Shown: one piece after another, positions 1 through 44,765 of the stretch
Layout: each line of letters starts with the position of its first letter
Numbering within the stretch: position 1 is the stretch's first letter
Assembly: GCF_001561995.1 (NCBI RefSeq)
Contig: NZ_LLWC01000024.1
Span: 1 to 64,000 of the forward strand
DNA from: Polycladidibacter hongkongensis
GTDB taxonomy: Bacteria > Pseudomonadota > Alphaproteobacteria > Rhizobiales > Stappiaceae
Direction: 5' to 3'
Length of the DNA: 64,000 bases
The notes under the pieces: model-generated
Seen by the model: the letters and a program-made list of their open reading frames with translations, nothing else
Told to the model about the DNA's origin: nothing
Database searches by the model: none
Position numbers and translations under genes: made by a program

Positions 1-2
1 AG

Positions 3-1892
3 GTGCACAACGATTTTGCAGGGACGCCGCGCGTTGAGAATAACGGCCCGGGCCGCTACACCATGCAGGATATCGGCGAGCTGGCCTCGCTGCTCTATCG
101 CCAGCTGGATGCGCTGGCTTTGGCGCAATCGCGTCAACGCTTGGCAGACCGCGAGCCACCGGCAAGATACGGCATATTTGCCGATGCGCATGTGGATGAC
201 CGGTTTCGTGATGCGGGGGCAGTGCAGACACTGGCCTCCTCTGGCGGCGTCTTGGCGCTGGCACTGACAACAACCGTGCATAATCTGGCGCTGCAAACGG
301 TAGCGACATTGCCCTACGAATTGGAACCAATTGTCGAGCAGCCCCTTAAAAACGACTGCGTGAAAATCAACCGCTTTGCCAATTTCGAGCCCGATCCGGC
401 AGAGATCGAGGTTACCCCTGCCAGCGATTTCTGGGTGGATGTGCGCGAGGAATGGGCCAGCCAGCGCACCCGCACCATTCGCGGCGGCGGCCCGCGCACA
501 GTGAGCAGCGTGGAGCAACTGGGCGCCCGCGAGGAACCTGCCAGCTTCATCCGCGCGCAAACGCTGGCAATTGAGCTCACCCGCATGGCCGCAGGCGAAC
601 GGCTGCAAAAACTTGAATTTGACGGCGTGGACATGACGCCCGCAGGCGCGCATGTGGCTGATGAGGACGGCGCTTTGCAGATCGCCCTGCAAATACCGGC
701 GCTCACATTCCCCGTAGGAGAAAAACTGGTGCGGGTAACGGGGATGGCCGGATCATGGGCCGAGGCGAGCTTTACCGCACGCGGGCGCACCTTGGTGCAG
801 ATGCGCCGGCGCGTGGTCACACGGTTTGAGCAGTTGCCACGGCGGGTGCGCCGGCGGCGCAATGATCCTCGCGGCCAGATCGTTATCCTGCCAGATCAGG
901 GCCGCCATCTGGGAGCGTTCTGGGCGGAGTTCTGCGCCATTGGCGACAAAACAAAGCCGGTGGTGTGCGAGCTGCGCGCTGTGGGCGGTGATGGCGACGT
1001 GCTGGATGAGGTATTGGCGCAAACGCAGGTGGATATGAGCACTGTGAGCACAGGTAACTGGACACAGTTTGTATTTGCCGATCTGCCCTATCTACCGCGT
1101 GACCGGCGCTATGCGCTGTGCCTGCTCACCGGCGATAACGAGCACGCCATATCGCGCGCTATTGTGGGCAATGCGGTGGATTTTAACGACCAGATCCGCG
1201 TCACCAAAAACGCCTATGCATTGGGGAATGAGGTGGAGAGCTCTACCGGCTCCAGCTGGAACCATTTGCACGATAGTGACTTAAAATTTGCCTTGCATGC
1301 GCCGCGCTTTACCCAGCTGGAAACGCGCCTATCACTTGGCGTGGTGGAGCTAACCGCTTGCTCGGACCTGCTCATTCGCGCCGCTGTGGAGCTGCCCGAG
1401 GCGGGCTGCGCGGTACATTTTGAGGTGGAGCGCGCCAGCGGTGAACTGCTGGTGCTCGAGGCCGATACGCCGCTGCAGCTGGACGCGTTTTTAGATGAGC
1501 ATGTGGAGGTGTTTGCGGTGCTCAAAGGCACGGCCACCGCATCGCCAGTGCTCATGCCCGGTGTGCAGCTGGTTGCAAGCCAGCTCGCCAGCAGCGGCCA
1601 GTATGTCAGCCGCGCGTTTAAAGTAGGCGGTGCGGATAGTCTGCCCGTGCGCGTGGATGCGCGCCTGCCAGCCGGGGCTACCGCCACCATATCGGTGCGC
1701 GATAAATCGGGCGGCTGGGTAGAGCTGGCGCAGGGTAGTGCCGAACCGCTGGACCTGCCGGGCTGGCAGGATGTTCGTTTTAGCGCGGACCTCTCCGGCC
1801 AATTGGGGCAAATGAGTGCGGTAAAAATCGAGCTGACAGGCACACCGGCGGCGCGGCCTTACATTGCCGCCACCCGCGCCGCTGCGATTTAG
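3..1892 (+). CDS. DUF4815-type phage tail-associated protein, 5' end cut by the window
   Basis: The frame is open from the window edge, so the GTG at position 3 need not be the true start. Early residues read RQRLADREPPARYGIF and, later, VEQPLKNDCVKINRFANF. I recognise this pattern from DUF4815 proteins of alphaproteobacterial phages and prophages, which lie next to tail-fibre genes and are probably part of the baseplate or fibre complex. The C-terminal half (about residues 400-629) looks beta-rich and repetitive, as in fibre or adhesin segments. It is followed 15 bases later by the tail-fibre gene, so the two are probably cotranscribed. The biochemical role of the family is unknown. Confidence 0.72.
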   Translation: MHNDFAGTPRVENNGPGRYTMQDIGELASLLYRQLDALALAQSRQRLADREPPARYGIFADAHVDDRFRDAGAVQTLASSGGVLALALTTTVHNLALQTVATLPYELEPIVEQPLKNDCVKINRFANFEPDPAEIEVTPASDFWVDVREEWASQRTRTIRGGGPRTVSSVEQLGAREEPASFIRAQTLAIELTRMAAGERLQKLEFDGVDMTPAGAHVADEDGALQIALQIPALTFPVGEKLVRVTGMAGSWAEASFTARGRTLVQMRRRVVTRFEQLPRRVRRRRNDPRGQIVILPDQGRHLGAFWAEFCAIGDKTKPVVCELRAVGGDGDVLDEVLAQTQVDMSTVSTGNWTQFVFADLPYLPRDRRYALCLLTGDNEHAISRAIVGNAVDFNDQIRVTKNAYALGNEVESSTGSSWNHLHDSDLKFALHAPRFTQLETRLSLGVVELTACSDLLIRAAVELPEAGCAVHFEVERASGELLVLEADTPLQLDAFLDEHVEVFAVLKGTATASPVLMPGVQLVASQLASSGQYVSRAFKVGGADSLPVRVDARLPAGATATISVRDKSGGWVELAQGSAEPLDLPGWQDVRFSADLSGQLGQMSAVKIELTGTPAARPYIAATRAAAI

Positions 1893-6532: not shown

Positions 6533-6601
6533 TACCTCGTTTAAGTAAATGCAGATTGAATTCTTCTGAATTCATGTAGAAACGAACGAAAGAAGTTAAT
6601 C

Positions 6602-8953
6602 ATGTCTGTTCTTACGTCACAACTTGTTTTGTCTCTCGTAGATAACGCAACGAAACCTGCGCGAGCTGCCGCGAATAACATTGTGTGGCTGAAGGAAAAG
6701 GTTCGCGATACGTCAAGGCAGATGGGGCATATGCGCGGGGCGATGCTAGAGGCTGCAGGTACTGGCTATTTGCTTGCTCAAGCGATTTCGCAGCCCATTC
6801 AGGCGGCGACAGAGTTTGAGAGCGCAATGTCGGATGTGAAAAAGGTTGTCGATTTCGACACGCCTGACGGCTTTACAGTTCTTTCTCGCGAGATCCGCGA
6901 TTTGGCGCTAGATATTCCGATGGCGGCCACTGAAATCGCATCGCTTGTCGCAGCAGCAGGGCAGGCAGGTATGGCAGGCGGCGAGTTAACTCAATTTGCC
7001 GAGATGGCTGCAAAGGTTGGTGTCGCTTTTGATATTTCCGCAGAGCAAACCGGGGAGTCTCTTGCCAAAATCAAAACAGCGCTGGGTCTTTCTATTGAAG
7101 AAACCCAGCTGCTTGCAGATGCCATGAACCATCTATCTAATAGCAGCGCCTCATCTGCACCAGATATTTTGAATTTTATGCGCCGCGTTGGTTCAATTGG
7201 GCTACAATACGGGTTCACCGCTGAGCAAACGGCAGCCATCGGATCGGCGATGATAGCGGCAGGGGCAGAGGCAGAGGTGGCTGCAACGAGTTTCAGGAAC
7301 GTGGGCAAAGCGCTTGCGCGCGGTGAAAGCGCCACGAAATCACAGCGGGAAGCCTTTGCAAAACTTGGCCTTGATGCAACCAAGGTTAGCAAGTCATTGC
7401 AAAAGGACGCTGTCGGCACACTCAAGGCAATAATTACGCGCATTCGGCAACTGCCCAAGGAAATGCAAGCGGCGACACTCACGGATCTTTTTGGCGATGA
7501 AGCGCGCGCTATTGCGCCTCTCATTGAAAATTCGGAGCTCCTTGAGCAGGCGCTAGGGGCTGTTGGTGATCAGACCAATTATGCAGGCTCAGCTCAGGAG
7601 GAGTACAACGAGCGGGCAAAAACAACTGCAAACGCTATTCAGCTGTTTAAAAACAACATGAACGAACTTGCAATATCACTCGGGAGAGCGCTGCTTCCAG
7701 CTCTAAACGACATTATGGCTGCGATTATTCCGTTCGTGCAGGCGTTGTCGGAGTTCGCTTCAAATCACCCAGAAATAACAGCTGCTGCTGTTGCGATCGC
7801 AGGCAGCCTCGTTGCGCTTCGCGTTGTGACGATTGCATCCCGCTTTGCGTTTCTAAACCTAAAAACTGCTGTGTTTCAGTGCGCTTGGTTTGTCGGCAGG
7901 GCAACAGCGGTGATCCGGACAGCGCTTGTCGGGCTGCGCGCTGCGCTGGTTGGCAGCTGGCTGATGGGAGCGGTATCCGGGGGCGGGTTCTTCGGCGCGT
8001 TGACCGCTGCTGCCTCAGGGGCTGCGGCTGTGATGTCGTGGGTCGCCGGGGCTGTCGGTGCCGCAGTTGCCGCTATATCTGCTCCCATTGTGGCACTTGT
8101 CGCGGCGATCGTGGCTGCAGTCGCTGCAATAGCGCTTGTGATCTACAACTACTGGGAGCCGATCAGTAACTTTGTCTCAGGGTTTGTAGGGGCCATAGCA
8201 GATGCTTTGAGCACCTTGTTTGAGACTTTAGGCAGCTGGTTCGCTAGCCTCGCCTCAATGCTCGGCGAATGGGCAACGCAGCGGCTGATTGATATTGCGG
8301 GGCTGCTGGGCATTGATCCGGAAACTGTTCGCGCCGCTTTAGGTATGGCCTACAATCTCATCCAGAGCAGCCTCAACAATATCGTAGATTTTGTTCTTTC
8401 GATCCCGCAGCGCGTGGGCTCGTGGATCTCTGACATTTTTACAATGAATGATTATTCGGACGCTGCTGAGCAAGGCTTCCGCAACGCGGGTCGGCGCGCT
8501 GGTGAGGCGTTGGTGAACGCGATCAAGGAGGCGTTCTGGGGGTTGATTGAATGGTTCAAAAATCTGCCAGATCTGATTATTGATGCAATCGGCTCTATTG
8601 ACATGAGCAACCTGATCAAATGGCCGGATTTATCTTTTTTGGGTATAGGGACACCTTCTGTAAAAGTCGACGGTGCCCGTGCTGCGGGCGGGCATATCGC
8701 AGGCGGGAAAACCTATCTGGTAGGTGAATACGGCCCTGAACTGGTTACGCCTGGCGCCTCTGGATATGTCCACACAGCAGGCGAGACCGCGGCGATGCTT
8801 TCGGGCGGGCAGGGTGCGGCGCAAGCGGTCGCCGTTAATTTTGGCGATATTCATATCAGCGGGGTTGAGGATGCCGAGGGCGTAATGGCGCAGCTCATGG
8901 ATCGAATTGGCGATGCAATGAACGGCCTACAGGCCGACCTTGAACCGGCATAG
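6602..8953 (+). CDS. Phage tail tape measure protein
   Basis: At 783 residues this is the longest gene of the tail block, and its length sets tail length. Residues about 60-350 carry the TP901-type tape-measure core (TEIASLVAAAGQAGM, SSASSAPDILNFMRR, SFRNVGKAL). Residues about 390-530 form a long hydrophobic stretch with membrane-spanning potential, needed when the protein is ejected into the host. The C-terminal block GGKTYLVGEYGPELVTPG is a signature of tape-measure ends. The start at 6602 follows a GAAAGAAG stretch. Its position after gpE/E', the proteins that coat it, is as in P2. Confidence 0.9.
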   Translation: MSVLTSQLVLSLVDNATKPARAAANNIVWLKEKVRDTSRQMGHMRGAMLEAAGTGYLLAQAISQPIQAATEFESAMSDVKKVVDFDTPDGFTVLSREIRDLALDIPMAATEIASLVAAAGQAGMAGGELTQFAEMAAKVGVAFDISAEQTGESLAKIKTALGLSIEETQLLADAMNHLSNSSASSAPDILNFMRRVGSIGLQYGFTAEQTAAIGSAMIAAGAEAEVAATSFRNVGKALARGESATKSQREAFAKLGLDATKVSKSLQKDAVGTLKAIITRIRQLPKEMQAATLTDLFGDEARAIAPLIENSELLEQALGAVGDQTNYAGSAQEEYNERAKTTANAIQLFKNNMNELAISLGRALLPALNDIMAAIIPFVQALSEFASNHPEITAAAVAIAGSLVALRVVTIASRFAFLNLKTAVFQCAWFVGRATAVIRTALVGLRAALVGSWLMGAVSGGGFFGALTAAASGAAAVMSWVAGAVGAAVAAISAPIVALVAAIVAAVAAIALVIYNYWEPISNFVSGFVGAIADALSTLFETLGSWFASLASMLGEWATQRLIDIAGLLGIDPETVRAALGMAYNLIQSSLNNIVDFVLSIPQRVGSWISDIFTMNDYSDAAEQGFRNAGRRAGEALVNAIKEAFWGLIEWFKNLPDLIIDAIGSIDMSNLIKWPDLSFLGIGTPSVKVDGARAAGGHIAGGKTYLVGEYGPELVTPGASGYVHTAGETAAMLSGGQGAAQAVAVNFGDIHISGVEDAEGVMAQLMDRIGDAMNGLQADLEPA

Positions 8954-34224: not shown

Positions 34225-34623
34225 TCAGTTTACCAGATAAGCTGGTTATTGTTGGTGAGGCCCGTCAGCCATGTGCTGGTGGGCCTCACTGTGTTTTGGG
34301 CTGTGAAAAAGCGATTCATCGCAATTAATTTTCACTTATCGCGGATTTCTGCGGTTTTTTAGCAAATGCTTCGACAATTCTAAATTCACCACGCATAATA
34401 TGTGTGCTGCATTTGCAACAGAAGTTCCCTACAGAAAGTGGTGTGGCCTTTCAATCGTTCTATCTGGGTTGCGTTCCAGCATTTTGTGATGCACTCATAC
34501 GTTCGTTGGCGAGGCACGAACACGTATAGTTTGTGCTGCCGACACGGGATTTCAGCTCGGGCGCTGCTCCAAACAGCGCGCAAGAGAAGCTGAATACAGA
34601 GACTTATTGGAAGGTCAGGACTA
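34225..34623 (+). promoter_or_regulatory. Spacer porin 1 to porin 2
   Basis: Contains the porin 1 terminator (34255-34289). The remainder is promoter and leader of porin 2, with a GCGC-TGCTCCAAACA-GCGC hairpin around 34561-34580. The ribosome-binding region 34598-34620 is complementary to the sRNA candidate at 44431-44452 over 22 bases with one mismatch and one bulge. No gene. Confidence 0.5.
34255..34289 (+). terminator. Terminator of porin 1
   Basis: GTGAGGCCC pairs with GGGCCTCAC, with an inner CAGC/GCTG stem. The following T-tract (TGTGTTTTGGG) is weak. Confidence 0.7.
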
Positions 34624-36066: not shown

Positions 36067-36762
36067 TTGCCTACCGGCCTCGCCGGTGCGTAATGCATGA
36101 TTTGAGCCCGCCAGCAGCTTGCTGGCGGGCTTTTTTGTGATTTGGCCTGTAGGCACTGACATCAAGGGATCGCGCAACGTGGGCACGCGCCCTTAGGAGC
36201 TGCGCGCCTCTCAGAGCGCAGGGGCTGCTGAGGTGTGGCTGATGAACTCACAATCAAACGAGATTATTGCAGTATTTAGGCGTATCCTGCCGATCTGCTG
36301 CGAGACCGCTTAGGAAAATTGAAGATCATCAAAAAGGCAGCTTGATAACCCGTCATTCGAGAATCAATATGCAGATGACAGTGCCATTTGCATGAAATCA
36401 CACAAAGTATGCATGATTTCTGTCTGGTGCTGTTGATAAGGCGTTCTTATGGATTTCATAATAGATATTCTTATTAACGTACTGAAAATATACAATTTAT
36501 TCCAATAGACAAAACCAAGTTTCTCGAAAAATCGAAAGCATGTGCAGTATGCAAAAGAGGTAAAATTGCAACACAACCTATGAGAGAACAATGTGAGACA
36601 CATAGAACATTAATTGCATACTTGCGCCAACCGCGCCGTTCATTAGGTTGAAGGCCATCGAAATAAATCAACTTAAGGTTGTTTTTGCTCGTACTTGTGC
36701 TGAGCCTGAAGTTATCAGCTTTGCACCTTCCAATGAAATTTCTGAATTTAAGGTCAGGACTA
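36067..36762 (+). promoter_or_regulatory. Spacer porin 2 to porin 3 (about 700 bases)
   Basis: Holds the porin 2 terminator and then a GC-rich stretch with short inverted repeats (36176-36235). An AT-rich stretch follows (36360-36660) with no convincing gene, and the porin 3 leader ends in AAGGTCAGGA (36750-36759). The leader shares CCTTCCAATGA (36726-36736) with porin 4 and could pair there with the AAGG of the binding site. Confidence 0.45.
36106..36136 (+). terminator. Terminator of porin 2
   Basis: GCCCGCCAGCA pairs perfectly with TGCTGGCGGGC around a GCT loop, followed by TTTTTT. Confidence 0.9.
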
Positions 36763-38292
36763 ATGAACGCTAAACTTATTGCTATGGCTGCCGCTGCTGC
36801 AGCTGCTGCAACCTCCGCGCAGGCAGCTGATCTGCCTGTTGCTGCTGAGCCAGTAGATTACGTACAGGCTTGTGACACTTTCGGTGCCGGTTACTTCAAA
36901 CTGCCAGGCAAAGACACCTGCGTTAAAATCGGTGGCCGCATCCGTGCGAACATCAAATCCGGTAACCTGAAAGTTAAAAACGAAGGTAAGAACTACGAGT
37001 TCTACACCAAAGGTTACTTCTATCTGACCTCCATGACCGACACTGAAATCGGCATGATCAAAACCTACAGCGAGTTCGTTGCGCAACATACCGCGCATGA
37101 CGTGGACTCCGATAAGGATGGTCACCAGAATGTAGCAATTGGTCTTGGTGATGCGTACGTTCAGTTCACCTTGGGCAACACCGACGTTTCCGTTGGTAAA
37201 ATGGGCGATGCTTTCGCTGGCTTCACCGGTTATGCTGCTGTAGGCGTTGCGCACCGCGACTGGGCTGACACCGGCTCCTTGCAGGCGCGTGTTGTTTCTT
37301 CCTTGGGTAATGGTCTGTCCGCTACTCTCGCAGTTGCAGATTCTGACTACCTTAAAGGTGGTAAGAACAAAGTTGACCTACAGGGTGCTTTGGAATTCGC
37401 ACAGGGCTGGGGCAAGGTTAAAGTTTCCGGTGCAGCGCACCAGACTGCCTACGACAAAACCGGTTATGCTGTGAACGCTAACGGCGAATTCACCTACGAC
37501 ATGGTTACTGTTGGTCTTGGCGCCCAGTACTCCAAAGACGCGCTGAAATACGTTGGTGCTAAAGCTGGTGATATCACCGGTTTCGGCGTTGATGTTAAGG
37601 AAGGTTTGTATCTGGCTGCAAATACCGATGCTGTAAAGTACAAGTACGATGCTGCTAAGATTAAAGCGCTTTCAGACTTGGGTATTGCGGCAAACGCCGC
37701 TGGCGACAATCTGGTAGTTACCGCTGTGGATGCGGGTGATTACACCGATGCGCATAAAGCCGCAATCAAGGTGCTTGGCGGTGACGCTAGTGCGAATCTT
37801 GATGATGCTGCTGCGCTTGCATACGTAAATGGCGTGTTCGGTTCTGGTAATGCGGCAACTGCTGGTGCGGCGTTCAAACGCGTTGAACTCGTAACTGCCT
37901 ACAACACAGCAGCTGCTGCTGCGCTGGCAAACAGCGAAGCAAAAGGTGCAAAAGCTTACAACGTACACGGTGGTGTGAAGTTTGCACTGACCGACGAAGT
38001 AACTCTTGCGGTTGACGGTTCTTACCAGAAAATCACTGCAAGCGGTTCCTTCTCCGATGCCAAAATCGGCGACGGTAAAGCATACGGCTTTGACACTGAC
38101 CGTAAGGCATATGGTGTAGACGGTTCTATCGCTTACTCCCCAGTTGCCGGTCTGGTTCTGGCGCTGGACGCTGGCTGGAACAAGTCTGAAACCACCTTCA
38201 CTGCTGAATCTCTGGACCGTAAGAGCAAAGCTAAGCAGACAACTTCTGCTGACGACGTTCGCGTTGGTGCACGTGTACAGTACACCTTCTAA
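36763..38292 (+). CDS. Porin 3 (Porin_2 family)
   Basis: Start at 36763 behind AAGGTCAGGA gives 509 residues; the frame is open 84 bases further upstream but without binding site. Signal and first mature residues are the same as porin 2. The loop between KYVG and AYNVHGG is about 132 residues long (AAKIKALSDLGIAANAAGDN, SGNAATAGAAF) and Ala-rich. The middle region (HRDWADTGSLQARVVSS) is closer to porin 4 than to porin 2, so the gene is a mosaic. Ends in GARVQYTF. Confidence 0.9.
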   Translation: MNAKLIAMAAAAAAAATSAQAADLPVAAEPVDYVQACDTFGAGYFKLPGKDTCVKIGGRIRANIKSGNLKVKNEGKNYEFYTKGYFYLTSMTDTEIGMIKTYSEFVAQHTAHDVDSDKDGHQNVAIGLGDAYVQFTLGNTDVSVGKMGDAFAGFTGYAAVGVAHRDWADTGSLQARVVSSLGNGLSATLAVADSDYLKGGKNKVDLQGALEFAQGWGKVKVSGAAHQTAYDKTGYAVNANGEFTYDMVTVGLGAQYSKDALKYVGAKAGDITGFGVDVKEGLYLAANTDAVKYKYDAAKIKALSDLGIAANAAGDNLVVTAVDAGDYTDAHKAAIKVLGGDASANLDDAAALAYVNGVFGSGNAATAGAAFKRVELVTAYNTAAAAALANSEAKGAKAYNVHGGVKFALTDEVTLAVDGSYQKITASGSFSDAKIGDGKAYGFDTDRKAYGVDGSIAYSPVAGLVLALDAGWNKSETTFTAESLDRKSKAKQTTSADDVRVGARVQYTF

Positions 38293-38869
38293 GGTGATTG
38301 GCTAATTCTTGGCAGCATGGCTGCTATAGAGTTGACGGGCTCGCGGGGGGTAACTCCGCGGGCCTTTTTGCGTCCTGCGCAGGGGGGGTGGTGATTGACT
38401 CGCGTGGTTGGTGGTTAATAGCCATCTGCCCCTGATGTCATGGGGGTGGTATGGGGGTGGCATGGGGCTCGCGTCGGGGTGTTATCGAGCGGTTTCTTTC
38501 CACAGAGCCAATAAATTTAAACAGTTTTGGAAGTATTTATGTATTCTCGATGGAGAATTTTTCCAAGAAACCGAAACTCCAATAGTCTAGATAGATAGAA
38601 TTTTATCTATGTGGAATGAATAGTAGGCATTCGTTGATTTTGTTGCATTTTTGACCGTGTTTATTTTGACACACCCAATATTGATGGAGCGATCAAACTA
38701 GATAATCTTGACAGTGCTGCGTTGTCGGGGGCGCGGAAAAACATATGGTTGGTGCAGCGCTGAACGGCACTCCTCTTGGATGGCTGAACGGGGCTGACAG
38801 TTTGCGCGGGGATCTTCCAAACATTTTCGCGCCTTCCAATGAGACTTTATATTCCGAAGGTCAGGATTT
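38293..38869 (+). promoter_or_regulatory. Spacer porin 3 to porin 4
   Basis: After the porin 3 terminator no gene is seen. GGAATGAATAG (38613-38623) and GTGTTTATTTTGAC (38657-38670) recur at the same spacing upstream of porin 5. The leader has CCTTCCAATGA (38832-38842) able to pair with GAAGG of the binding site, which is GAAGGTCAGGATTTAT (38856-38871). Confidence 0.5.
38338..38369 (+). terminator. Terminator of porin 3
   Basis: GGCTCGCGG pairs with CCGCGGGCC (one GU), followed by TTTTT. Confidence 0.85.
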
Positions 38870-40276
38870 ATGAACGCTAAACTTATTGCTATGGCTGCCG
38901 CCGCTGCTGCTGCTGCAACCTCTGCTCAAGCTGCTGATTTGCCAGCTGCTGCCGAGCCAGTTGACTACGTACAGGCTTGTGACGCTTTTGGTGCCGGCTT
39001 CTTTAAACTGCCAGGCAAAGACACCTGCATCAAAGTTGGTGGCCGTATCCGCGTAGATGCGACTTCCGGCGATCTGCAGGATTCCAAAGGCGACGAGTAC
39101 AAGTTCTCTTCCAAGGGTTACCTGTACCTCACCTCCATGACCGACACCGAAATCGGCATCATCAAAACCTACACCGAGTTCACCGGCAAGCACGATGAAA
39201 AGGGTGGCGAGAAAATCGGTTCTGGCGACACCTACATCCAGTTCTCTCTGGGTGCTGGCGATCTGTCCTTCGGTAAAATGGGCGATGCCTTTGCCGGCTT
39301 CACCGGTTTTGCCGAGGTTGGCGTAGCTGACCGTGACTGGGCTGACACCGGTTCCTTGCAGGTTCGTTTTGCTGCTCCGCTTGGCAACGGCGTAACTGCA
39401 ACCATGGCGCTGGCAGATTCCAACGCTCTTGACGGTGCAGATCACAAAGTTGACCTGCAGGGTGCTTTGGAAATGGCACAGGGCTGGGGCAAAGTTAAGG
39501 TTTCTGCTGCTGCGCACCAGAGTGCCTTTGACAAAGTCGGCTATGCTGTGAACGCAAATGGCGAGTTCACCATGGACGCGATCACCATCGGCCTTGGCGG
39601 TCAATACGCGAAAGACGCTCTGAAATACGCTGGTGCTTCTAACGATGATGTGACCTTTGCTAAGGAAACTGGCGCGTATCTCGCAACTGCTGATGATGCG
39701 AAGAAAGTTGCTTTGAACGAAGCTATGGCTGGAAAAGGTGAAGGTCATCTCGTAACAACTGAAGAAAAGGCGCTTTATGCGGCAGCTGGCGTTACTCTTG
39801 ATGTTGATGATGACGGCGAGTTAAAAGATACATTCACCGCTGTGGACCTATCCGATACTGCTGTAGCGAACTATGCAATTAGTGATGCAGTCTCAAAGGC
39901 GCTTAACGCAAAAGGTGCGACTGCATACTCCTTCGGTGGTGGTATGAAGTTTGCCGTTACCGACGAAGTGACCTTCGCCATCGACGGTTCTTACCTGAAT
40001 GTATCTAACGACGGTTCCGTGTCTTACGAAATCGACAGCGAAGATGTTGCGTTCGGTTATGACTTCAATCAGGTTTCCTATGGTGTAGACGGTTCTATCG
40101 CCTATGCGCCGGTTGCTGGTCTTGTGCTGGCTCTGGATGCCGGTTGGGACCGCACCGAAACCGACGTTACCTACGACATCGTAGACACTAAAGACGACAG
40201 CAAGAAGGCGTCACGCAAGTCTTCTATCGAAGACGACAACTTCAAAGTCGGTGCACGTATCCAGTACACCTTCTAA
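38870..40276 (+). CDS. Porin 4 (Porin_2 family)
   Basis: 468 residues with the common signal, then ADLPAAAEPVDYVQACDAFG and the KDTCIKVGGRIR block. The loop between KYAG and AYSFGGG is about 96 residues, highly acidic (DVDDDGELKDTF, VDLSDTAVANY). Barrel end GARIQYTF. Its binding site is the one with the longest uninterrupted complementarity (16 bases) to the sRNA candidate. The 3' end of its region and terminator resembles porin 3. Confidence 0.9.
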   Translation: MNAKLIAMAAAAAAAATSAQAADLPAAAEPVDYVQACDAFGAGFFKLPGKDTCIKVGGRIRVDATSGDLQDSKGDEYKFSSKGYLYLTSMTDTEIGIIKTYTEFTGKHDEKGGEKIGSGDTYIQFSLGAGDLSFGKMGDAFAGFTGFAEVGVADRDWADTGSLQVRFAAPLGNGVTATMALADSNALDGADHKVDLQGALEMAQGWGKVKVSAAAHQSAFDKVGYAVNANGEFTMDAITIGLGGQYAKDALKYAGASNDDVTFAKETGAYLATADDAKKVALNEAMAGKGEGHLVTTEEKALYAAAGVTLDVDDDGELKDTFTAVDLSDTAVANYAISDAVSKALNAKGATAYSFGGGMKFAVTDEVTFAIDGSYLNVSNDGSVSYEIDSEDVAFGYDFNQVSYGVDGSIAYAPVAGLVLALDAGWDRTETDVTYDIVDTKDDSKKASRKSSIEDDNFKVGARIQYTF

Positions 40277-40858
40277 GGTGTTTGGCTAAATCTCTTGCAG
40301 CCGAGCTGCAGGTGAATTTGATGGCTCGCGGGGGCGACTCCGCGGGCCATTTTCGTTTGCCAGAGTGTCTTTTTTGCGTGTGGGCCGACCAAGAATTTGC
40401 GGCAGATTCTGTTGTTTGCGGCGCGGCGGGCTGTTGGCGGGCGCCGAATTTGATTGTTGCGGATGCCTAGGTTTTTAGCTGCATGGAAGCGCATCTGGTA
40501 ATTGTTGCAGGGCTGTTGAAAAACAAAACCATAGAAATGATTGAGTATTCGTGCGGAATGAATAGCTAATGGAAGCTTATGGTTCCTGTCTGAAACTTGT
40601 GTTTATTTCGACTTTAGTATTTTGGAACTGTGATTTTTGTGCAAGTGGGTCGCTGTTGCTTCAGAGCTACAGTTTATGCCCCACCATTTGATGCAATGGC
40701 AAAACTGCCCCCGATATTCTTGAGGAAGGAGCGGGAAGGGCGCATGGTCCTCTCCAGCGGCGGTGCTTTGGCGATCCTGTCGCTGATGAACATAACCTTT
40801 GCCCCACGCGTTTTCCACCTATGCGGGGGCTGATATCTCATTGTGAAGGTCAGAATTT
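40277..40858 (+). promoter_or_regulatory. Spacer porin 4 to porin 5
   Basis: Terminator of porin 4, then no gene. GGAATGAATAG (40555-40565) and GTGTTTATTTCGAC (40599-40612) repeat the pair found upstream of porin 4 with identical 44-base offset. The leader ends with TGAAGGTCAG (40844-40853) and ATTTAT. Confidence 0.5.
40323..40353 (+). terminator. Terminator of porin 4
   Basis: GGCTCGCGG/CCGCGGGCC stem as for porin 3, followed by ATTTTCG. Confidence 0.7.
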
Positions 40859-42133
40859 ATGAATGCGAAATTGATTGCGTTGGCAGCAGCGGCTGCCGCG
40901 AGCGCTGGCTCTGTATCTGCTGCGGATCTGCCAGCGGTTGCTGAACCTGTCGATTATGTGCAAGCGTGTGATGCGTTTGGCGCCGGTTACTTCAAGCTGC
41001 CGGGTAAAGACACCTGCATCAAGATCGGCGGGCGTTATCGCGGCACCATCATCTCCGGCAATATGCAGGATGACAATGATGGCAAAAGCCATGGTGACGA
41101 GTACACCTTTGAAAGCCGTGGTTATCTCTATCTCGACAGCATGACCGAGACCGAGATCGGTCTTATCAAAACCCATGCGGAGTGGATCACCGAATACACC
41201 GAGGATGGTAAGAGTAAAGCCAAGGTGGACGATACCTACATCCAGTTTGGCATTGGCAATGGCACATTGACCATTGGTAAGCTTGGCTCTGTCTTTGATG
41301 GCTTTACCGGTGCAGCGGAAGTTGGCGTTGTCGGGCGTAACTTCTCTGATACCGGCCTGTTGCAGGTGAACTATCGTGCTGCGCTGGGTAACGGCGTGAG
41401 CGCCGCGATTGGCCTTGATGATTCCAATTCCCGTGGCGGTGCTGACCACAGCGTTGATGTGGTGGGTGAGCTTGGCATCGAGCAGGGCTGGGGCTCCTTC
41501 TCTGTGGGTGCGGCGATGCACGCGGTGAAGGATGACTTTGTATTGAAGGATACTGCTGCGGGTTCTGAAACCGTTCTCGATCTCGATCCTGAAAGTGATT
41601 ATGGCTATGCGGGCCGTGCAACCTTGGGCTTGAATCTTGATAGCTTGGGCATTGGCGGCGCGGAAGTCACCTTCCAGGCGGCATATGCCAAGGCTGCGCT
41701 TGACTATCTTGGTCTGGGCGATAACGTCGGCAAGGTGACCTATGTTTCCAGTGATACTACACCGGTGACCTATGAATCATCTGATTCGATTGCGCTGCTT
41801 GAGGCCATTGACGCTGATGGTTACAGCTTTGGCGGTGGTATGAGCTTTGCGCTGACCGAAGAGGTGACGTTCGCCGTTGACGGGTCATATGTGCAGGTTG
41901 ATGCGGACTACGAGAACTACGACTGGGACATCAAGCGTAGCGCCGTGGATGCGTCAATCACTTGGGCGCCGGTTGCAGGTCTGAAAGTTGCCTTGGATGC
42001 GGGTTACGCCACAGCTGAGCTGAAGCAGAAGGTGACTACTCCAGCTAGTGGCAGCGCTGCTGCATCAGTTAAAACAACGAAATACGACTCGGATGAGGCA
42101 AAAGTTGGTGCGCGCGTTCAGTACACCTTCTAG
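40859..42133 (+). CDS. Porin 5 (Porin_2 family)
   Basis: 424 residues. The signal (MNAKLIALAAAAAASAGSVS) and codon choice differ from porins 2-4, with more GCG/GTG, so it is an older or separately derived copy. The mature part starts ADLPAVAEPVDYVQACDAFG. The variable loop is about 35 residues (VGKVTYVSSDTTPVTYESSD). Two further short insertions relative to porin 1 occur (near VLKDTAAGSETVLDLDPESD and KVTTPASGSAAASVKT). Barrel end GARVQYTF. Confidence 0.9.
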   Translation: MNAKLIALAAAAAASAGSVSAADLPAVAEPVDYVQACDAFGAGYFKLPGKDTCIKIGGRYRGTIISGNMQDDNDGKSHGDEYTFESRGYLYLDSMTETEIGLIKTHAEWITEYTEDGKSKAKVDDTYIQFGIGNGTLTIGKLGSVFDGFTGAAEVGVVGRNFSDTGLLQVNYRAALGNGVSAAIGLDDSNSRGGADHSVDVVGELGIEQGWGSFSVGAAMHAVKDDFVLKDTAAGSETVLDLDPESDYGYAGRATLGLNLDSLGIGGAEVTFQAAYAKAALDYLGLGDNVGKVTYVSSDTTPVTYESSDSIALLEAIDADGYSFGGGMSFALTEEVTFAVDGSYVQVDADYENYDWDIKRSAVDASITWAPVAGLKVALDAGYATAELKQKVTTPASGSAAASVKTTKYDSDEAKVGARVQYTF

Positions 42134-42520
42134 GCATTCTGATTTGGTTTAAAAACCAAAGAGTTTTCGCGAAAAATACGAAGCCCGTTGCGCAGTAATG
42201 CGCTGCGGGCTTTCACTTATGGGTTGTGCACGCAAAAAGGGCAAGTGTGACTAAATTTGTATGCATCTTGAAGCTGTGCAAATCTGCGAACACTATTAAC
42301 ACATTGAATATTTTAGTGAAATTTAGCTCTCATTAGTTGCCTCGTTGCGTGAATGCAACACGCAGTAGAATGTGCCTTATTATGCATGCGTGTAACTAAA
42401 ACTTTTGGTTGCGTTTTGTGTGTGCATATAGCAATGAATGGTACATCAACTAATCCTAAGGTTGTGCCTGTGGCGTATTTCGCCGTGGGTCTCGATTTTC
42501 TGAATTTAAGGTCAGGACTA
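42134..42520 (+). promoter_or_regulatory. Spacer porin 5 to porin 6
   Basis: Terminator of porin 5, then AT-rich promoter region with no gene. The last 25 bases (TCTGAATTTAAGGTCAGGAC then TA) are the same as before porin 3. Confidence 0.5.
42182..42213 (+). terminator. Terminator of porin 5
   Basis: AGCCCG..GCGCA pairs with TGCGC..CGGGCT around GTAA, followed by TTC. The T-tract is weak. Confidence 0.65.
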
Positions 42521-44164: not shown

Positions 44165-44188
44165 GGTTTCTTAGTGGATTGTGATGTG

Positions 44189-44230
44189 TGGCGGCGCAGG
44201 CATTAATGGCTTGCGCCGCCGCTTTGTTTT
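44189..44230 (+). terminator. Terminator of porin 6
   Basis: GCGGCGCA and TGCGCCGC pair with inner GC/GC, followed by TTTGTTTT. Confidence 0.8.
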
Positions 44231-44349
44231 CTAGGCCTCGTAGGATATAACAAGGGCCTAGGTGGGGGCGCGAATTTAAGGATGGAACGAGCTTGTCCTG
44301 TATGCTTAAGCTTTGCACAGGCCGCAGCACATAGTCTGGGCGCGTAAAC

Positions 44350-44378
44350 TTGACAATATGTGTTGCGAGACACGTTCT
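44350..44378 (+). promoter_or_regulatory. Candidate promoter of the porin-array sRNA
   Basis: A perfect -35 TTGACA (44350-44355, preceded by C) lies 17 bases before CGTTCT (44373-44378), a poor -10. Alphaproteobacterial -10 boxes are often loose. A transcript would begin near 44385. Confidence 0.4.
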
Positions 44379-44384
44379 CTTTGC

Positions 44385-44488
44385 AGTTTCTCCGATATAA
44401 GCGGAGACAATTCTCTGGTTGAAGAATAAATCCTGACCTTCAATCAGTCTCTGGCCCGGCGGTTCCAACCCGCCGGGCTTCCCATTTT
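44385..44488 (+). ncRNA. Candidate small RNA antisense to porin ribosome-binding sites
   Basis: Seen in the sequence: a 5' stem-loop TCTCCG-ATATAAG-CGGAGA (44389-44407), then an unpaired stretch, then a 9-bp perfect hairpin GCCCGGCGG/CCGCCGGGC (44454-44478) followed by TTCCCATTTT. In the unpaired stretch, ATAAATCCTGACCTTC (44426-44441) is the exact reverse complement of the porin 4 ribosome-binding site and AU of its start codon (38856-38871). Bases 44431-44452 are complementary to the porin 2 leader (34598-34620) with one mismatch and one bulge. Porins 3, 5 and 6 match over 10 bases including AAGGTCAG. This is the layout of a trans-acting repressor RNA of the MicF/MicC kind. The alternative is a decayed inverted porin leader without function. 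No expression evidence exists here. Confidence 0.5.
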
Positions 44489-44765
44489 AAGGGGCTATTT
44501 TCTTAGTGTTCCTTATCAAACTCATGCAGTTATGGGCAGTTTTTCAAATTTCATAGATTTTCTCTGAAAATCCTAGATCCTCCTTAAGAAGACGTAGATG
44601 GTAAATGCTGGGATGCATCTAGGGTTATGGCTTTGACTTGGCTTTTGTTCAGGATTGCGAGCAATCTCTATTGGCAAATATTCTCCTAGTCATGAAGTGG
44701 CGAAGAAACATCTAGTGCTTAGGTGCTTGGCAATCTCTTCGCGACCAAGGTGAGTGGAGAGTGGT

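Follow-up and report, generated by a model that had tools for sequence, protein, structure and literature searches.

The window, the whole stretch of 64,000 nt of Polycladidibacter hongkongensis DNA that was analyzed, carries seven tandem genes of the Porin_2 family (PF02530, confirmed with Pfam), a family to which porins of Brucella and rhizobia also belong. A conserved unit of 78 nt (44412-44489), the parts of which are listed in Table 1, is situated between porins 6 and 7. It begins 247 nt past the stop codon of porin 6, behind a terminator-like hairpin. The original prediction had placed here an antisense small RNA (sRNA) that would repress porins of the same array. For the analysis of pairing, the start codons of the porin leaders were chosen by the signal peptide. 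The listed open reading frame (ORF) starts of porins 3 (36679) and 6 (42353) are apparently too early; the ribosome-binding site (RBS) and the MNAKLIAM signal peptide place them at 36763 and 42521, respectively.

Table 1. Features of the porin-array RNA element and its predicted target sites in the window
Feature	Position	Strand	Basis
Whole conserved RNA element (putative standalone sRNA)	44412-44489	+	covariance model R3, 78.4 bits, E 2.4e-16 in window (the window copy is itself among the rows used to build R3)
Stem-loop 1	44415-44447	+	folding; covariation analysis, which took in 7 of the 10 pairs
Pairing region (loop, 3' arm, UCUCU)	44426-44452	+	complementarity to the RBS of porins and to AGAGAC upstream
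GC-rich 9-bp hairpin, probable terminator	44454-44478	+	folding, family covariation
Candidate -10 box GACAAT, weak	44406-44411	+	3 nt before stem-loop 1 in window
Porin 6 terminator-like hairpin, would part porin 6 transcript from the RNA	44188-44222	+	terminator scan
Predicted target site, porin 2 leader (start 34624)	34610-34620	+	duplex -33.6 kcal/mol, z -4.1, 0/200 shuffles
Predicted target site, porin 4 leader (start 38870)	38856-38871	+	duplex -32.3 kcal/mol, z -4.9, 0/200 shuffles
Predicted target site, porin 5 leader (start 40859)	40845-40860	+	duplex -34.3 kcal/mol, z -4.7, 0/200 shuffles
Weaker predicted target site, porin 3 leader (likely start 36763)	36750-36759	+	duplex -20.5 kcal/mol, z -2.8, 2/200 shuffles
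Weaker predicted target site, porin 6 leader (likely start 42521)	42508-42517	+	duplex -20.5 kcal/mol, z -1.2, 24/200 shuffles, not significant

The element folds more stably than its shuffled versions (z -4.1; none of the 200 shuffles was equally stable) into two hairpins joined by a UCUCU linker. Stem-loop 1 has 10-bp arms (44415-44424 and 44438-44447; CUGGUUGAAG / CUUCAAUCAG) and a 13-nt loop (44425-44437; AATAAATCCTGAC) carrying UCCUGAC. The stretch that had been taken for open and single stranded is actually the loop and the 3' arm of this stem-loop. The 9-bp GC-rich hairpin proposed downstream of it is real, and its loop, UUCCAAC, provides another anti-RBS motif. The T-rich end claimed for the unit is less marked than described: the tail CTTCCCATTTTA is only weakly U-rich, with no classic U run, and the terminator scan of the window gave no flag for the hairpin and its tail. 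Since the U-richness of the tail is modest, the assignment of the hairpin as a terminator is only probable.

A TTGACA -35 box (44350) and a 5' stem-loop (44389-44407) had also been counted as parts of the unit. Both sequences are present, but they lie outside the conserved BLAST matches, which in the 15 relatives begin at query position 64 to 83, i.e., at 44413 or later. The 5' dyad was equaled in stability by 32 of 300 shuffles, and its equivalents did no better than shuffles in most of the 11 lineages folded. Directly before stem-loop 1, at a distance of 4 to 6 nt, we found a TAnnnT box in 14 of the 16 Pseudovibrio genomes; the two exceptions have GACAAT (the window, 3 nt) and TATAGC (G012, 4 nt). 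The box is suggestive of a promoter belonging to the sRNA itself, as a plain count over genomes several of which are closely related. From its position, the transcript would begin at stem-loop 1, at about 44415-44419.

Inverted repeats that differ by lineage overlie this presumed promoter region in the window (44389-44407) and in G001, G011, G013, and G015. They read, for example, TCTCCG/CGGAGA or AAAGGCT/AGCCTTT, 11 to 51 of 300 shuffles being equally stable in these five, and could, weakly, be operators. A separate long imperfect hairpin, CTTGATGTGATACTTG...GGTATCACTTCAAG, lies between the porin C terminator and the sRNA in the main-clade genome G015 (L096, about 6600-6720). Hairpins of this type also occur in G009, G007, G005, and G014, likewise of the main clade, with apparent compensatory differences across species, and none was present at the equivalent place in the fold of the window.

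A BLAST search of 151 genomes and a covariance model located the element in each of the 16 Pseudovibrio genomes, that of the window included, always within the porin array. It is on the strand of the porins in every one of them, and in 15 it separates the final two porins of the array; in G001 the last porin found on the contig precedes it, and the 2.8 kb read beyond it contain no porin. Two further genomes of the 151 matched by BLAST only in the linker and the hairpin. Three records, L024 and L025 from other genera and L027, matched in the linker and the GC hairpin only, appeared by eye to be coding DNA, and were rejected. A pattern scan of named genomes returned 24 stretches, 12 of them from Pseudovibrio; the 12 others include five Sphingomonas records (L032, L036, L038, L048, and L051) that match the sRNA scan pattern.

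The 16 Pseudovibrio copies (15 distinct) form base pairs in 98.4% of the pair cells of the alignment, compared to 23 to 51% in controls in which the structure was slid. Three pairs are changed on both sides, a number reached by 11 of 500 shuffles, and the covariation score was reached by none of the 500. By eye, compensatory combinations include UUGAAG/CUUCAA, UUGGAG/UUCCAA, and AAUGAAG/CUUCUUU, the third of which has one U-U mismatch. The structure of the element thus appears to be under selection. The first RNAalifold structure, in which alignment gaps had misplaced helix 1, and R1, which was derived from it, were left unused. The conservation that the original prediction called for was found, as the seed does not drift but is nearly invariant in relatives that keep the array, and compensatory changes support both helices.

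We then examined the complementarity to the porin leaders of the window. As had been noted, 44426-44441 is the exact reverse complement, over 16 nt, of 38856-38871, the RBS of porin 4. Inspection by eye also bore out the match to the porin 2 leader, which spans about 22 nt and is broken by one mismatch and one bulge, and porins 3 and 6 do share 10 nt with the element (starting at 36750 and 42508). The 10-base match attributed to porin 5 was found as 9 exact nucleotides, 15 of 16 positions agreeing by eye. The five sites all lie directly before the likely start codon. Allowing at most one mismatch, GAAGGTCAGGA occurs six times in the window, in these five leaders and the element, against 0.74 expected, and none of 100 shuffles reached this count. 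The motif AGGTCAGRA-N1-8-ATG has eight matches in the genome of the window, five of them porins 2 to 6 (reversed control, 2). The pairing claimed for all of porins 2 to 6 is predicted to be strong for porins 2, 4, and 5 and weak for porins 3 and 6. Porins 1 and 7, which had been expected to escape, lack the site, and their scores were equaled by 96 and 57 of 200 shuffles, respectively.

When 191 start sites of the window were ranked by pairing, porins 5, 2, and 4 took ranks 1, 3, and 4 to 5 (a tie), the rest of the top five being in-frame ATGs of porins 2 and 4. Porins 3 and 6 ranked 33 (a tie), porin 7 ranked 12, and porin 1 ranked 141. Later in-frame ATGs of porin 7 hold ranks 6 and 7, which counts against the prediction, as does the fact that part of the pairing region lies inside the 10-bp stem, which has to open. 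With the structures of both partners taken into account, the net cofolding gain was -18.4, -15.0, and -12.6 kcal/mol for porins 2, 5, and 4. For porins 3 and 6 it was -5.6 and -7.4 kcal/mol, barely different from the -6.3 kcal/mol of porin 7; for porin 1 it was 0.

The same analysis was extended to the other arrays by pairing the 5' part of the RNA of each genome with the leaders of its array porins and a few others and comparing the result with that of 200 shuffled RNAs. In all 16 genomes at least one array leader beat every shuffled RNA (z -4.3 to -7.6), and in 14 of them the best leader reached -38.4 to -46.6 kcal/mol. In the 10 main-clade genomes the best was always the leader of porin B (TTGAGAGACATTGGAAGGTCAGGA-n-ATG; -40.3 to -46.6 kcal/mol). 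Site-bearing porins have multiplied in the Pseudovibrio exalbescens genomes and in the species of the window. The D-type porins were close to chance, and so were most of the C type, the best being porin C of G005 (5/200). Seven of the nine main-clade A-type leaders, at -22 to -29 kcal/mol, were equaled by 0 to 5 of 200 shuffles, and in G008 and G012 the porin at the head of the array was equaled by 2 and 1, respectively. The predicted specificity is therefore not sharp. In 12 sRNA-leader pairs examined, the duplexes are interrupted, with 24 to 38 pairs in total and a longest unbroken helix of 10 to 17 bp.

For coevolution of seed and leader no general pattern emerged: a genome's own sRNA was the best of the 16 for just 4 of 27 leaders, with no general advantage, and 156 to 394 of 5,040 permutations were at least as good in a test of the flanks past the core. 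Apparently matched flanks were seen only in P. exalbescens (G008 and G012; GUGUCC/GGACAC) and in G013. The pairing core is nearly invariant and leaves little room for covariation between sRNA and leader. TTGGA, the complement of the second loop, was present in 18 of 36 and 17 of 30 porin leaders versus 4 of 86 ORF leaders of the window, a frequency that comes partly from leader homology.

Two candidates that arose in the reading of these arrays were rejected. Porins of G008 and G012 that seemed to be interrupted have open frames, the stops being due to profile (HMM) matches that run over the terminal stop, and a hairpin of the porin B RBS with its own coding region was dropped since the complementary stretch belongs to porins C and A. 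There, the codons for ADLP, the mature N terminus, read GCTGACCTTCC at +63, like the pairing stretch of the sRNA, and are complementary to GGAAGGTCAG of the porin B RBS; this was seen in porin C or A of G001, G002, G003, G004, G006, G009, G010, G014, and G015 and is possibly another RNA-RNA contact in trans.

Outside Pseudovibrio the RNA has relatives at a different position. Searches with covariance models R2 and then R3 (E <= 1e-4) detected it in 49 of 87 Stappiaceae genomes belonging to three of seven genera (Pseudovibrio, 16/16; g7, 3/3; g2, 30/45), and in none of the 23 genomes of the other four genera. Before R3 was built, the g7 sources, L123, and all rows above E 1e-6 were removed, leaving 43 rows in alignment A3 against 49 in A2. 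Beyond the family, a sample of 297 genomes of the order, Stappiaceae included, yielded only four weak matches (E 2.9e-4 to 8e-4), none of them a porin locus by eye; one (L157) follows an ORF with an outer membrane-like C terminus. Forty-eight of the 53 copies outside Pseudovibrio lie 9 to 53 nt after an ORF that matches the porins of the window. By eye, the ORFs before two of the remaining five (G081 and G042a) also end in RLQRTF-stop, two copies (G065c and G057) stand behind a disrupted porin-like end, and that of G016 is not behind a porin. Elsewhere in the Stappiaceae the module is therefore an element of the porin 3' untranslated region (3'UTR).

In the alignment of the 49 family copies, 14 of 17 pairs showed changes on both sides, and 97.5% of the cells were paired, compared to at most 45% in slid controls, figures that lean towards the structure since the alignment was fitted to it. 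The hallmarks found were the CUGAnCUYC loop, a CAGUC linker, a GC hairpin with a UCCAA loop, covariation, and an adjoining Porin_2 gene. The loop 1 motif is present in 38 and UCCAA in 36 of the 53 non-Pseudovibrio copies, and both are present in all 16 standalone copies. No Rfam family reached its gathering score in the window, and a lax scan of 44300-44560 gave only ncS025 (E 4.4) and anti-hemB (E 9.2). We rate the porin-linked RNA of the Stappiaceae as a putative new RNA family, matching no family in Rfam.

These relatives bear on the origin and on the nature of the element. The original prediction had derived it from the inverted duplication of a porin leader, an unlikely origin given that its relatives in other genera follow porin ORFs as 3'UTRs. 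For the same reason we consider it highly improbable that the locus merely holds inverted DNA repeats serving recombination or inversion of porin genes, or the remnant of a duplicated leader, with no function as RNA. The 16-nt inverted repeat is indeed exact in the window; yet the element keeps the orientation of the porins in all 16 genomes, compensatory changes are retained in both helices, and in the main clade the pairing survives through G-U pairs where DNA identity is lost (CCTGATCTT versus AAGGTCAGG).

A cis-acting element, either a 5' leader or attenuator of porin 7 or a processing or stability element in the 3'UTR of porin 6, is a reading that the 3'UTR location in other genera would favor, and so would the fact that in 15 of 16 genomes the porins on either side of the element point the same way. 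We nevertheless hold it to be unlikely. The terminator-like hairpin of porin 6 precedes the element, the TAnnnT box stands directly before it in 14 of 16 genomes, and G001 has the RNA with no porin in the downstream sequence read; besides, a role in cis leaves the pairing with leaders kilobases away unexplained.

We also asked whether the copies in the other genera pair with the leader of their own porin. Leaders were available for 36 of the 53 copies, the other 17 having none in reach; a few were taken from a later in-frame ATG (e.g., G062 and G027a). In G021, G026, and G031, where the splitter found no hairpin start, pairing was computed with the entire element. Support for autoregulation in these genera was weak, with a median z of -0.96 and 11 of 36 copies at 5% or better. 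Pairing this close to chance is what one would expect if the complementarity were a by-product, the RNA having a general anti-Shine-Dalgarno (SD) or protein-binding loop with other main targets, or if any SD-rich leader paired with a CCU-rich loop. Loop 1 and the UCCAA loop are both SD complementary, and most shuffles scored worse than several A-type leaders that lack the full site. The motif AGGTCAGRA-N1-8-ATG had 5 to 20 matches in the other 15 genomes versus 2 to 11 in the control, mostly not array porins among the matches listed, so that this short motif alone is not porin specific outside the genome of the window. Against such a by-product, the pairing extends past the SD sequence to the upstream AGAGAC (24 to 38 pairs in the 12 cases), porins of type D and most of type C stay near chance, and array porins account for five of the eight site matches in the genome of the window; on balance we regard it as improbable. 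The core of the original prediction, an sRNA encoded in the array that would pair with porin RBSs, is well supported.

A further line of evidence for pairing comes from porin A, the 3'UTR of which carries a second copy of the element in nine of the 10 main-clade Pseudovibrio genomes. In the six of these nine that were analyzed, this copy pairs in silico with the leader of porin B at -27.4 to -45.3 kcal/mol (z -3.5 to -8.3; 0/200), with 27 contiguous pairs in G014, and with the other leaders of the same genomes mostly at about chance, the best being porin D of G015 (4/200). Two RNAs of the family thus seem to converge on the leader of porin B, which we regard as the best evidence that the pairing is in use. 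As porins A and B are adjacent, the second copy may also act in cis on read-through transcripts.

Taken together, the element is probably a standalone, trans-acting, porin-repressing sRNA of the MicF/MicC kind, with its own promoter, that stems from, or shares descent with, the porin 3'UTR module. The comparisons show its conservation, a covarying structure, complementarity to porin leaders, synteny, and relatives in porin 3'UTRs; its transcription, its 3' end, the repression, the conditions for it, and the participation of any chaperone are inferred. An RNA of about 75 to 80 nt would be made from a promoter within the porin array, and its stem-loop 1 would offer the anti-RBS loop UCCUGACC for the first contact with leaders of the type GAGAC-n-AAGGUCAGGA-n-AUG. 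After contact the stem would open, and its 3' arm and the UCUCU linker would lengthen the duplex upstream along the leader. The duplex would obstruct ribosome binding and thereby lower a subset of the porins, while porins whose leaders differ (1 and 7 in the window, and types C and D in the relatives) would for the most part be spared.

A broader reading, which we advance only tentatively, is that the porin 3'UTR module of the Stappiaceae can silence sibling porins at their RBS and that its duplicate in Pseudovibrio has become a free sRNA presiding over an expandable set of porins. Expression of one porin would then turn another off, as porin A might do to porin B in the main clade through its 3'UTR. 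If true, a self-contained RNA circuit for porin choice resides inside a single gene array, which would explain how many near-identical porins could be kept and chosen among, and the family would offer a plausible route from a porin 3'UTR to a free sRNA directed at its own gene family. The predicted pairings, which in one 3'UTR copy reach 27 contiguous base pairs, are directly testable in marine bacteria.

Repression of porins by sRNAs is a classic theme in enterobacteria, where the gene for MicC adjoins the porin gene ompN. In titles and abstracts of the open-licence literature, the matches listed included no porin-repressing sRNA for the Porin_2 family and no description of this RNA. MicF and MicC are described as modulating porins by pairing with their mRNAs (PMC5745476), and the element likewise is complementary to the translation start region of porin mRNAs. 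It differs from them in structure, in having several paralogous porins of one array as predicted targets, and in having porin 3'UTRs as relatives. Among alphaproteobacterial sRNAs, ChvR of Caulobacter is described as repressing an outer membrane protein via two pairing sites, of which one is close to the start codon; predicted pairing with the start region of mRNAs for outer membrane proteins is thus common to both RNAs, but their loci are unrelated and the target of ChvR is a TonB-dependent receptor (PMC6237742). The alpha-r14/NfeR1 sRNAs of the Rhizobiales, as described, have three hairpins with an anti-SD motif in each loop (PMC7143759). The element resembles them in its alphaproteobacterial origin, anti-SD hairpin loops, variable stems, and predicted mRNA targets that encode transport proteins, whereas it has two conserved hairpins and is bound to porin loci, and the Rfam scans, whatever their coverage of alpha-r14, gave no match.

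The sRNAs derived from 3'UTRs make up the remaining comparison. They include OppZ and CarZ (PMC7398697) and two that are described as repressing porins, FadZ (PMC10703908) and MalH (PMC9438474). The relatives in the Stappiaceae and the second copy in Pseudovibrio are likewise porin 3'UTRs and could be released as sRNAs. A 3'UTR-derived sRNA lies directly after a stop codon and has no promoter of its own; the position of the 48 non-Pseudovibrio copies close behind porin ORFs agrees with the first of these features, but the window copy has neither, standing alone with a promoter-like box. Unlike what is described for OppZ, CarZ, FadZ, and MalH, moreover, the parent gene and the predicted target of this RNA would both be porins.
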